A stretch of DNA of 56,293 nucleotides from Candidatus Uhrbacteria bacterium GW2011_GWF2_39_13 (GTDB taxonomy: Bacteria; Patescibacteriota; Patescibacteriia; UBA9934; GWF2-40-263): positions 1 to 56,293 of the forward strand of contig LBWG01000011.1 of assembly GCA_000993535.1 (NCBI GenBank), given 5' to 3'. Positions 34,554-38,247 of this stretch are shown here, piece by piece (position 1 is the first letter of the stretch; each line of letters starts with the position of its first letter). Made by a program: the position numbers and the translations under genes. Under the pieces are notes generated by a model. The model was not told the DNA's origin. It did not search any database and saw nothing but the letters and a program-made list of their open reading frames with translations.

Positions 34554-34559
34554 TGTTGA
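34554..34559 (+). repeat. Target-site-like direct repeat of element copy 1
   Basis: TGTTGA, repeated at 34720-34725 on the other side of the element. The last two bases also form the outermost stem pairs. Confidence 0.65.
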
Positions 34560-34719
34560 GACCTCTGTAAAACTCGATGAGATTGCCTTGAACGGGCTGC
34601 CCGCCCGACCGTCGAGCGTTCGTTCGGGCGGGTCGAGTTCCGAGAACCCTATTCACATAGGGAGAACGGAATCGACGGGCGCCCGTGAAAGGCAAGATCA
34701 CGAGTTTTACAGAGGTCTC
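34560..34719 (+). mobile_element. Structured palindromic element, copy 1 (160 bp, inserted)
   Basis: Outer stem: 34558-34576 pairs perfectly with 34701-34719 (19 bp, ending in AAAACTCG/CGAGTTTT). Then an asymmetric loop ATGAGA/GATCA, stem TTGCCTT/AAGGCAA, tandem GA/GA, stem ACGGGC/GCCCGT, and two apical hairpins (CCCGCCCGA/TCGGGCGGG and TCGA-TTCCG/CGGAA-TCGA). Six-bp direct repeats TGTTGA flank it (34554-34559, 34720-34725). Deleting it with one repeat extends the neighbouring ORF by 17 codons to a stop just before gyrA. No protein is encoded. Confidence 0.85.
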
Positions 34720-35024
34720 TGTTGACGTTCTTTTTCTTGTTGATACCCCTTTTGAGCCTCTTCTAATGCCTCAGAAAATGTGGATTGTTTTTCTTCTACA
34801 GAGGATTCAACATTTTTCAGTTCATTGGAGGCTTTCTCTAAACCTTTGTCCATCTGTAAACGAATTCCAGGAAGACTCGATGAAACGACCTGACTAATGG
34901 TCACAATCCATCCCATTGCAACAATCACCACTCCTGCTGTTAAAAATACCCAGAACCACCTGCGCTGTTTTTGATTCATGGGACGCAATGAAATAGGTCT
35001 GGGCAAAGAACGACGTGCTCCCAT
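34707..35024 (-). CDS. Small membrane-anchored coiled-coil protein, C-terminus altered by element insertion
   Basis: 105 residues starting MGARRSLPRP one base after the upstream stop. One membrane helix (about 26-47) is followed by a Glu/Gln-rich coiled coil. The last codons (RPL-stop) lie inside element copy 1. Without the element the frame would continue as [18 protein letters not shown] and stop 5 bp before gyrA, so the protein has lost a natural tail of similar composition. Function unknown; topology is short cytoplasmic N-terminus with extracytoplasmic coiled coil or the reverse. Confidence 0.7.
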   Translation of the reverse strand: MGARRSLPRPISLRPMNQKQRRWFWVFLTAGVVIVAMGWIVTISQVVSSSLPGIRLQMDKGLEKASNELKNVESSVEEKQSTFSEALEEAQKGYQQEKERQQRPL

Positions 35025-35025
35025 A

Positions 35026-35676
35026 TTATCTCGTGAGAGAAACAATCAACATATCCTCTTCAGGAAGTTCTTTGCGGGTAAACTTATATTTATTGATATC
35101 TTCTCTTCGACAACTACCCAGTGCATTACAAAAGGCGTCAACGGTACCAAAATTCTCCTTCATGAGAGGAAGAGCATGCGTCATCGGAATGATGACTCGA
35201 GGTTCAATTTGAGAAATAACCTCAGAAGCAACCACTGGGTCCATGACCCGACCACCACCAACAGGAATCATAAGAACATCCACATGTTCCAACCGTCGAA
35301 GTTCATCATCGGTTAGCACACGATCCAATGCTCCTAAGTGAGCCAAACGCATCCCTTCCGCTTCAATGCGAAAAAGAAGATTAGGAATGGGAATACCTTT
35401 TACCTCACGTTTAAGAGGAGCAGCCAGACCAAAGATAAAAATACCTTTCACTTCAAATTCACCTGGCAAATCAATTGTGTAAGGTTCTCCCATAACAGCC
35501 TCAACATTATCCGCGTCTTCTTCGTTATGAGACACCAAAACGAGTTCTGCCTGTAAGGTCCTTGGAAAACGTAAACCTGTTGTATTTTGATAAGGATCGG
35601 TAACAATATGAACATCTCCATTTGGAGTTTTTGTGACGATTTCAAAAGAAGAAAGACCATTCCATGAGATTTGCAT
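35026..35676 (-). CDS. Metallo-beta-lactamase-fold protein with degenerate metal site
   Basis: 216 residues with the layout of UPF0173-like MBL-fold proteins: MQISWNGLSSFEI start, DPYQNTTGL strand, LVLVSHNEEDADN where active enzymes have H-x-H-x-D-H, then LPGEFEVKGI and AHLGALDRVL (usual AHLGD). Only some metal ligands remain, so catalysis is doubtful. One base separates it from the coiled-coil gene; the two are translationally coupled. Confidence 0.8.
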   Translation of the reverse strand: MQISWNGLSSFEIVTKTPNGDVHIVTDPYQNTTGLRFPRTLQAELVLVSHNEEDADNVEAVMGEPYTIDLPGEFEVKGIFIFGLAAPLKREVKGIPIPNLLFRIEAEGMRLAHLGALDRVLTDDELRRLEHVDVLMIPVGGGRVMDPVVASEVISQIEPRVIIPMTHALPLMKENFGTVDAFCNALGSCRREDINKYKFTRKELPEEDMLIVSLTR

Positions 35677-35712
35677 ACGGGTAAGATAATAACATGAAAA
35701 AAAACCAACAAC

Positions 35713-35750
35713 AATAAAATAAACGGGGTATCAACCCCGTTTATTTTATT
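35713..35750 (-). terminator. Terminator of the 36423 gene
   Basis: Stem AAATAAACGGGGT/ACCCCGTTTATTT around ATCA; strong T tract on both strands. It lies at the end of the minus-strand gene 35746-36423. Confidence 0.85.
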
Positions 35751-36423
35751 CCTCTGAAAAAAGATCTTTCCAGTATTCAATCTCTTTATTGATGAGTTCC
35801 AATTCAGGATCCGGTTCTGTCACAAGAAATCCCTCACGAAAACGAGCCGCTTTCCCTTTTATTTCGGCTCGCTGGTTTTCATCACCTCCTTGCACATAAC
35901 TTTCCAATTCATCAATTGTTTTTACCATGTCCTGAGCATATTTTTTCCATTTTTTGACAAGTTCATTATATGCTTGTACCTGATCTCCTACCTGTTTTTT
36001 TAACGATTCTGCCAACTTATCTTTAGCTACGAGAATACCGTCCTCAACCTGATAGCGTTGTTTTGGATCGAGCTGTTGTGTAAATAAATCACTTGAAACA
36101 AGCTCTTCTAATGAAACATCGGCGTCCAAATGAGGTTTAATCACACCCCTGACGGTTTCATCAACATGATCTAAAACCATTTGCTTCATTTGAGCTTCCG
36201 CATTGAAATGCGTTAACTCTTCATACGCTTTACGATAAGGATATTCCTTTAATCCGATCTCATAAAAAACTTTTTTAATAAAATCCTCATCGAGATTTTC
36301 ATTTTGCAGCAGTTCCTCATAAGCCTTTTGCGCTTCATCTTTAACCTCCTGAGGAAGCGTGGGCACAAAATGTCTAATGGCAAAATGAAATTCATCCAGC
36401 ATGGCCTTGTGTGGGTGGGACAT
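35746..36423 (-). CDS. Unknown soluble helical protein
   Basis: 225 residues starting MSHPHKAMLDEF, almost entirely helical and charged (Lys/Glu-rich). The ATG at 36423 is preferred: a longer frame upstream would run through structured element copy 3, which ends 9 nt before this ATG. No Shine-Dalgarno is visible between element and start. The element therefore forms the whole proximal 5' leader. Confidence 0.65.
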   Translation of the reverse strand: MSHPHKAMLDEFHFAIRHFVPTLPQEVKDEAQKAYEELLQNENLDEDFIKKVFYEIGLKEYPYRKAYEELTHFNAEAQMKQMVLDHVDETVRGVIKPHLDADVSLEELVSSDLFTQQLDPKQRYQVEDGILVAKDKLAESLKKQVGDQVQAYNELVKKWKKYAQDMVKTIDELESYVQGGDENQRAEIKGKAARFREGFLVTEPDPELELINKEIEYWKDLFSEE

Positions 36424-36431
36424 AACGTTTT

Positions 36432-36562
36432 GGAGATCTCTGCAAAACTCGCGATCTTGCGGCTTACGGGCACCCAGGCATCGCTTCAACGTCCGTTTTG
36501 GGACGTTTTCAGCGACTGCCAGCCCGTGCACCGCAATCTCATCGAGTTTTGCAAAGATCTCT
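36432..36562 (-). mobile_element. Structured palindromic element, copy 3 (variant, reverse orientation)
   Basis: Read on the minus strand it has the family core: AAAACTCG-ATGAGA-TTGCGG-TGC-ACGGGC ... GCCCGT-AAG-CCGCAA-GATCG-CGAGTTTT, with about 20 bp of outer stem (one C-A mismatch, one G-T). The tip differs from copies 1 and 2: one long hairpin (GGCA, TCGCT, ACGTCC stems) replaces their two. No flanking direct repeat is visible. It sits directly upstream of the gene at 36423. Confidence 0.75.
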
Positions 36563-36645
36563 TTAATAAAAAGATAGCTTTAATCGTTATTTAAATAAAT
36601 CGTCTTTATCCTATCAATAAACCAAATAATGGTCTAATAAAAAAA

Positions 36646-36683
36646 CACCGTAACCAATGTTGATTTCAACATAAATTACGGTG
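36646..36683 (-). terminator. Terminator of the 37824 gene
   Basis: Stem CACCGTAA/TTACGGTG with inner ATGTTGA-TTT-CAACAT hairpin, then a run of seven or more T on the minus strand. Confidence 0.85.
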
Positions 36684-36708
36684 CAATAAGTCACAAGAAC
36701 TAAGACAC

Positions 36709-37824
36709 TTACATACGAACGTACGCAAACCCATCTTCACTGCCAAACCTGTAATCAGGGATATCGTCGAAAGCATCAAGCCCACTAAACTCAGGTATAG
36801 AAACACCCCTGCGAACAATTGAGAGAAAGCTCGGATTGCCGCAAGAATCTTCGATGGATTCGTGCATGATAGCAATACTGGAAATTCCCATAGCCTTGAA
36901 TTCCTCATCCGAGTATTGATCGCGGATAAGGCAGGCGATCTGCGGATTCGGGATTGTGAGGTTCATCTCACTCGCCTTCTGACGGATGTTTTTGGTGATA
37001 CAATCGCTGCCTGGAAAAAGTATACTCTTCAGAATGGCGATTTCGTAGGTACCACTCATCGAGTTGAATTCCTTGGAACGAAGAAGGTATCTTGCCCAAT
37101 CGCTCACACAGAAGCCCTTCTTCTCCAGACGCTTGATCCATGCTTTGCCACTGGTCCCATTGGAGGTGACGGTGAGATAGATCACACCATCAACTTCGCG
37201 CCAACGTTTTTTGATCGGCTCAGGAACAACGAGCACTGCCACGCGACTCTGGTCGTACCAATCTTCGTAGAAGCTCTGGTAACCCCATTCCCACGCATTG
37301 CCGTTCCAGTACAAGTAACGAACGTACAGGTTATTATTTGAACCGCGATAAATCGTTCCCAAGAAGGAAGTAAAAAGGTTGTTCCCATTCTCATTGATTT
37401 TCCAATCTTCCGGAATTATCTCTGGATGAGCGAGGAGGTAATCCAGAACGCATGCGTTCAAAACCGAAATCTTTTCACTCTGAAGCTCTGTAAGGAGCTT
37501 GTTTCCTTTTATTCTCTTGCCGTTATTATGACTTGGCGAAAAGTGGAGTCCGAGCTTGGATGGATCAAGCTCGAGTATGCCGTGACCTTCATGGCTCTCA
37601 ATCTTCCATCCTCTCTGCTTCCACTCTTTAGGTAAACAATCGGACACAAGATTAACGAGATGCCTGATCTGGATGTTCCCCGTGCCACGGACGAGATGCA
37701 GAACTTCCGCAAGCAAATCACCTTGACCAAGCTTGTTTACATCTGCCTCGGTCCAGTTATTGCGAGCGAAGGCTATCTCGAGGTGGTGACCCAATCCCTG
37801 ACCCATCTTGAACTGGTCATTCAT
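36709..37824 (-). CDS. Unknown protein
   Basis: 371 residues starting MNDQFKMGQGLGHHLEIAFARNNW. ATG fixed by AAGGAG 8 nt upstream; longer frames upstream lack support. It looks like two parts: an N-terminal helical region (about 1-110) including LGQGDLLAEVLHLVRG, and a mixed region with many aromatic residues. I do not recognise a family. Its leader of about 300 nt contains structured element copy 2 in the opposite orientation. Confidence 0.65.
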   Translation of the reverse strand: MNDQFKMGQGLGHHLEIAFARNNWTEADVNKLGQGDLLAEVLHLVRGTGNIQIRHLVNLVSDCLPKEWKQRGWKIESHEGHGILELDPSKLGLHFSPSHNNGKRIKGNKLLTELQSEKISVLNACVLDYLLAHPEIIPEDWKINENGNNLFTSFLGTIYRGSNNNLYVRYLYWNGNAWEWGYQSFYEDWYDQSRVAVLVVPEPIKKRWREVDGVIYLTVTSNGTSGKAWIKRLEKKGFCVSDWARYLLRSKEFNSMSGTYEIAILKSILFPGSDCITKNIRQKASEMNLTIPNPQIACLIRDQYSDEEFKAMGISSIAIMHESIEDSCGNPSFLSIVRRGVSIPEFSGLDAFDDIPDYRFGSEDGFAYVRM

Positions 37825-37928
37825 GACGTGTTCTCCTTGGTTGTGCGACATGTTCCTATGAACTCGTCGCGCCAAAATGCCAGAGGGTTTCTGAAAAAAT
37901 CAGATTTACCGTAGCAAGAAACTGCCCT

Positions 37929-37936
37929 GTTTAGAG
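37929..37936 (+). repeat. Target-site-like direct repeat of element copy 2
   Basis: GTTTAGAG at 37929-37936 is repeated exactly at 38097-38104, bracketing a 160-bp body. Confidence 0.7.
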
Positions 37937-38096
37937 GTTGCCCCAAAACTCGATGAGATCAACTTGAACGGGCTGCCCGCCCGACCGTCGAACGTTCGTT
38001 CGGGCGGGTCGAGCTCCGAGAACCCTATTCAAAATAGGGAGAGTGCGGTCGACGGGCGCCCGTGAAAGTTGAGATCGCGAGTTTTGGGACAGCCTC
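37937..38096 (+). mobile_element. Structured palindromic element, copy 2 (160 bp)
   Basis: Outer stem 37934-37952 with 38078-38096 (19 pairs, one G-T, one mismatch). Loop ATGAGA/GATCG, stem TCAACTT/AAGTTGA, tandem GA/GA, stem ACGGGC/GCCCGT, and the same two apical hairpins as copy 1. From 37966 to about 38042 it differs from copy 1 by two substitutions and one loop change, whereas the stems below differ strongly but remain paired. Flanked by an 8-bp direct repeat. It lies between the divergent 37824 gene and the rpsA-like gene; 37825-38322 otherwise holds only promoters. Confidence 0.85.
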
Positions 38097-38140
38097 GTTT
38101 AGAGCGTCTTTTTGCTAGGGTAGATCAATCAAAGACCTGC

Positions 38141-38169
38141 TATTAAACCACAAAAGGTGGTTTTGTCAA
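38141..38169 (-). promoter_or_regulatory. Promoter of the 37824 gene with a palindromic spacer
   Basis: Minus strand: TTGACA (38164-38169), 17 bp, TTAATA (38141-38146). The spacer contains the inverted repeat AACCAC-CTTTTG-TGGTT type (AAACCAC-AAAA-GGTGGTTT on the plus strand), a likely operator. Confidence 0.6.
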
Positions 38170-38218
38170 TCATTTGAACATTTTCACACATTCTAAAAGA
38201 GATCTCTATTCATCCGCG

Positions 38219-38247
38219 TTGACAAACAAGACTCATCCTTCTACACT
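38219..38247 (+). promoter_or_regulatory. Promoter of the rpsA-like gene
   Basis: TTGACA (38219-38224), 17 bp, TACACT (38242-38247). The 5' leader of about 70 nt includes a G/C-rich segment (38274-38312) able to form small hairpins such as GGC-CGTCT-GCC, unusual in this A/T-rich leader context. Confidence 0.7.

Follow-up and report, generated by a model that had tools for sequence, protein, structure and literature searches.

The elements analyzed here form a new MITE family whose mode of evolution is unusual. Three copies lie in the 34554-38101 region of the window, the whole stretch of 56,293 nucleotides from Candidatus Uhrbacteria bacterium GW2011_GWF2_39_13 (contig LBWG01000011.1). We hypothesize that DDE transposases from the IS5/IS1182/IS982 group mobilize the elements in trans and that, once inserted, their terminal arms are copied onto each other and drift together, which we regard as the probable explanation of the data presented below.

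The first-pass annotation had placed three elements in this region, and all three were found there (Table 1). The core sequences it quoted, the altered second stem and the altered pairs beside AAAACTCG were all correct on rereading, and the bodies of about 160 bp with short flanking repeats are those of copies 1 and 3. The nearly identical apex that it reported is real (94% identity over 87 nt), but it is common to the plus-strand copies 1 and 3 and not shared with copy 2. The 19-bp terminal arms are complementary to 100% in copy 1, 95% in copy 2, and 89% in copy 3, and none of the three copies contains a transposase frame. The predicted folding energy of copy 1 is -102.4 kcal/mol for RNA (z -11.8) and -65.1 kcal/mol for DNA (z -13.7), in either case far more stable than chance would give.

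Table 1. Coordinates of the three copies and their parts in the window
Feature	Position	Strand	Length	Remarks
Copy 1	34558..34719	+	162 bp	Class A ends, GAGACCTCTGT + AAAACTCG
Copy 1, P1 left arm	34558..34576	+	19 bp	
Copy 1, P1 right arm	34701..34719	+	19 bp	All positions pair with the left arm
Copy 1, left target duplication	34554..34557	none		TGTT
Copy 1, right target duplication	34720..34723	none		TGTT
Copy 2	36433..36561	-	129 bp	Class A-like ends, GAGATCTTTGC + AAAACTCG; apex unlike the others
Copy 3	37934..38096	+	163 bp	Class B ends, GAGGTTGCCCC + AAAACTCG
Copy 3, left target duplication	37929..37933	none		GTTTA
Copy 3, right target duplication	38097..38101	none		GTTTA

The same genome holds about 25 copies besides these three. 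A blastn search with copy 1 gave 41 matching stretches there, which resolve to about 26 copies, and a covariance model, the kind of search that the annotation had proposed, built here from 13 full copies, gave 38 matches, some palindromic copies being counted on both strands. In a set of Candidatus Uhrbacteria and relatives, 39 of 59 genomes contained model matches, up to 56 of them in genome G005, where the family reaches a copy number of 70. The family occurs in this group and almost nowhere else, with matches in only 4 of the 380 genomes of a phylum-wide sample (G000 and G002 among these 4), and its core pattern was absent from the viral contigs searched. An Rfam match, which according to the annotation would have spoken against an undescribed structured family, was found at neither gathering nor permissive thresholds, and a literature search covering a limited collection yielded no published description.

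The copies are 71-234 bp long, mostly 126-131 or 160-165 bp. They end in P1, a near-perfect terminal stem of 19 bp in which the outer 11 bp differ among copies and the inner 8 are near AAAACTCG; 94% of the P1 pairs are Watson-Crick (113 copies). Just inside P1 lies the best conserved part of the element, an asymmetric block that reads ATGAGAT on its left side and GATCG on its right and has GA/GA internal loops. The second stem, P2, has 7 bp and several subtypes, and the inner stem ACGGGC/GCCCGT is followed by a variable apex. The earlier picture of a conserved apex with variable ends has to be given up, as the ends fall into IS-type terminal-repeat classes and few parts vary as much as the apex. 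A divergent subfamily (L133, L139, L142, and L145 in G027; L094, L109, and L181 in G005) retains ATGAGAT/GATCG and has an entirely different P1, for example GTATTGTCTCTGAAAAAAG, with GCGCCGCGCTG as the second stem.

The family is mobile. Exact direct repeats of at least 4 bp stand beside 37 of 117 copies, with 5 expected, and the length of the target duplication varies with the class of P1 (4, 5, or 7-8 bp). Class A ends (GAGACCTCTGC) have a 4-bp duplication in 20 of 49 copies, where 0.9 would be expected, class B ends (GGGACTGTTCC, GAGGTTGTCCC, GAGACCGTTGA) mostly have one of 5 bp (6/28 copies, 0.3 expected), and class C ends (CTGTGAATTAC) have one of 7 bp in 2/12 copies and imperfect longer repeats at others. 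The orthologous sites of copies 1 and 2 are empty in G005, other loci have empty sites too, and because these empty sites have no arms, P1 belongs to the element. The annotation had taken the copies for non-autonomous mobile elements, and this reading was borne out: they are short and dispersed, with terminal inverted repeats, target duplications, empty sites, and, for class A, a parent IS. Hence, they are MITEs, which carry P1 along when they move. Copy 3 is missing at the orthologous place in G005 together with its surroundings, a block of about 1.6 kb (window 36627-38241) being replaced by about 40 bp. The block also holds a 388-aa open frame (36709-37875, minus strand), for which a Pfam search gave no family above the cut-off and which may encode a type of protein common in CPR genomes.

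Transposase genes with matching ends are present in close relatives. In G002, a genome of the window's own genus, an IS5-family gene (NF033581, E 1.5e-54) lies beside an identical class A end. The class A end is also found in other phyla, where it terminates other small elements, and in an Opitutae MAG it adjoins an IS5-family transposase gene. In G029, from the same family as the window, an IS5/IS1182-like gene is bounded by GAGACCACTGCAAAACTC on one side and by an imperfect partner on the opposite side. A class B-like end accompanies an IS1182-like fragment in G028, and a class C-like end accompanies an IS982-like fragment in G002. Judged by these neighbors, class A ends resemble those of IS5, and we tentatively call class B IS1182-like and class C IS982-like, the latter two assignments depending on partial genes located where contigs break off. 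The copy-rich genomes yielded no complete autonomous partner. Lone class A-C ends were also screened for a complete autonomous copy, and the two whose open frames were inspected had none. Other candidate drivers were rejected: PF13751 is present in 3 of 59 genomes and does not track copy number; G018, G022, G023, and G028 have 9-18 element matches and no match to Y1 (RAYT); and the ends of the IS982-family gene of G005 differ from class C. Elements of about 120-290 bp with GAGACCTCTGCAAAA termini and unrelated interiors (L236, L238, L249, L260, L263, L273, and others) occur in Planctomycetota, Verrucomicrobia, Patescibacteria, and other hosts; apparently, these are other MITEs of the same transposase group.

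Why do the two arms of a copy keep matching each other? In the 13 full copies, pairing holds in 97.4% of cells, and both partners have changed in 96 cells, compared with 29 in shuffles, which confirms that the stems change with pairing kept. This covariation is very strong, yet it should not be taken to prove RNA selection. Eight insertions are common to G000 and G005, and their 152 P1 pairs, which represent one species pair only, contain 25 double changes in which Watson-Crick pairing is retained, 11 changes on one side only, and 3 other doubles. Independent change would give 2.5 doubles and 52 singles, and 0 of 20,000 simulations reached 25. Leaving aside two indel loci, where the register is shifted, there are 11 doubles, 7 singles, and 2 other doubles, with 0.8 doubles expected. 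In the 60 bp flanking these insertions on either side, 11.7% of sites differ, and the rate of paired replacement in P1 is 10-16% at shared sites, so that paired replacement is about as fast as single-site divergence. That paired doubles arise as often as the flanks acquire single changes fits copying from arm to arm, and copying in one step explains these figures most simply. Among the copies compared between G009 and G027, there were no same-site pairs. Pairing exceeds 90% within P1 (it is lower at the last pair) and is about 25-35% directly beyond 19 bp, and the number of arm-arm mismatches is flat with distance from the end-class consensus. The copies compared in this way had been called with at least 14 of 19 pairs; of the 117 copies that the model detected with no limit of this kind, only 4 have fewer than 13 pairs.

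Paired changes could also arise in two steps through compensatory selection, if the hairpin works as an RNA (a 3' end structure or a tRNA leader) or as a DNA structure. The annotation had favored a selected RNA or single-stranded fold, and the extent of pairing, the strong covariation, and the constant placement and orientation next to tRNA genes and stop codons described below would fit such a function. The P1 mismatches point both ways. G-T mismatches are double the A-C mismatches on the motif strand (57:24, p 0.0003), in line with wobble intermediates; however, this excess is unchanged where the neighboring gene transcribes the opposite strand, and other mismatches (74) exceed G-T, in a count of copies called at at least 14/19 pairs, from which mismatched copies are hence trimmed. 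Wobble pairs thus do not dominate as they should in a selected RNA structure. Moreover, 13 of the 25 same-site doubles are transversions, for which there is no wobble intermediate, paired change keeps pace with single-site change in the flanks, and Rfam provides no match. Given the mismatch pattern and the frequency of paired change, we could not uphold a selected fold, and we consider compensatory selection unlikely.

Gene conversion would mimic a joint change of the arms if whole elements, including their ends, were replaced by other copies. Second-stem and apex subtypes are indeed common to several loci and differ at orthologous sites of G000 and G005 (L007, L196). This pattern suggests exchange between copies, and the interior has therefore probably been exchanged. 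The outer arms behave differently: the new arm resembles the old one and is peculiar to its locus (GGTATTCTTT to GGAATTTCTT; GTAAAACTTAT to GTAAATCTTCT), which argues that P1 was altered in place and not swapped and makes conversion an improbable source of the paired arms. It is scarcely credible that the core inserted in the loops of pre-existing palindromes, such as terminators, and that the outer stem is that of the target. The variation of outer stems from copy to copy would be explained in this way, but the outer stem ends constantly 19 bp from the core, the target duplications lie outside it, and the arms are missing from the empty sites, which refutes such insertion for the sites tested.

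Our preferred explanation is thus movement in trans combined with arm-to-arm copying. DDE transposases of the IS5/IS1182/IS982 group would recognize the 19-bp ends and move the element. After insertion, each copy is a long inverted repeat in which a mutation in one arm could be copied onto the opposite arm, and the arms would drift jointly with their pairing preserved; the likeliest mechanism of copying is a template switch at the replication fork (quasipalindrome correction). If the ends drift jointly, a copy could come to bear the ends of another transposase class. Pure arm copying does not predict the excess of G-T over A-C mismatches, and the arms are 90-120 nt apart, a distance longer than the arm spacing in most laboratory quasipalindromes.

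The position of the elements is biased. We surveyed 145 copies in G000, G005, G009, and G027, with coding genes called by a simple open-frame rule that makes single distances approximate. For 30 of the 145 copies, a tRNA gene lies no more than 7 bp away, and in 30/30 cases the right end points toward the gene, 24 contacting the 5' end in the same orientation and 6 the 3' end in the opposite orientation. As background, 0.23% of positions are within even 30 bp of a tRNA gene. In G005, which is nearly complete, 15 of about 40 tRNA genes are contacted by a total of 16 copies. Where the neighbor on the right is the 3' end of a coding gene, 35 of 57 copies stop within 8 bp of the stop codon, compared with 11 of 54 where such a neighbor is on the left. 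Copies with target duplications are biased in the same way (14 on the right versus 4 on the left), and the polarity therefore stems at least partly from insertion or very early selection. There was no excess of a -10 box to the left of tRNA-adjacent copies relative to shuffles. We tentatively suggest, as a possibility, that template switching keeps the ends palindromic and permits a change of transposase family while the right end settles at tRNA genes and stop codons.

Covariation is usually taken as proof of a selected RNA structure, and here mutation itself seems to be the source of paired change. A dispersed element provides many natural replicates and could serve to calibrate covariation tests and to measure template switching in nature. 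The joint drift of the ends suggests a route by which a MITE could change its transposase, and the way in which one particular end abuts tRNA genes and gene ends is an unexpected feature of the family.

How does the family compare with known systems? Integron attC sites are not a match, because their GTTRRRY/RYYYAAC core sites are not at the ends of these elements, which are GAGACCTCTGC and the other classes. Like REP/BIME sequences mobilized with RAYT (Y1), the family comprises numerous extragenic palindromes, often close to gene ends; unlike them, it has target duplications and DDE-type IS ends, and Y1 does not track its copy number. IS5, IS1182, and IS982 elements of genomes from the same genus or family have the same termini (exact for class A, similar for B and C) and differ in carrying a transposase gene. 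Monttinen and Loytynoja (2022, PMC8794818) described template switching that maintains hairpin stems in rRNA, and in E. coli, quasipalindrome correction has been studied with short reporters (PMC7202029). These hairpins share with our elements multi-base paired stem changes that lack intermediates, whereas here the hairpins are dispersed transposon ends and the target sites give the ancestral state. Closest are the IS-derived MITEs of bacteria (PMC10969869; MITEAba12, PMC6382973; QMITE2 of Coxiella; RU/ERIC), which are likewise short, non-coding, and present in many copies, with terminal inverted repeats, target duplications, a strong fold, and a parent IS with matching ends. In the passages searched of the MITE review (PMC10969869) and of the MITEAba12 paper (PMC6382973), there is no mention of contact with tRNA genes or of arms changing in pairs. 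What sets the present family apart from known MITEs is that one core is combined with several end classes matching different transposases, that the arms change together at one site, and that the right end lies against tRNA genes and stop codons.
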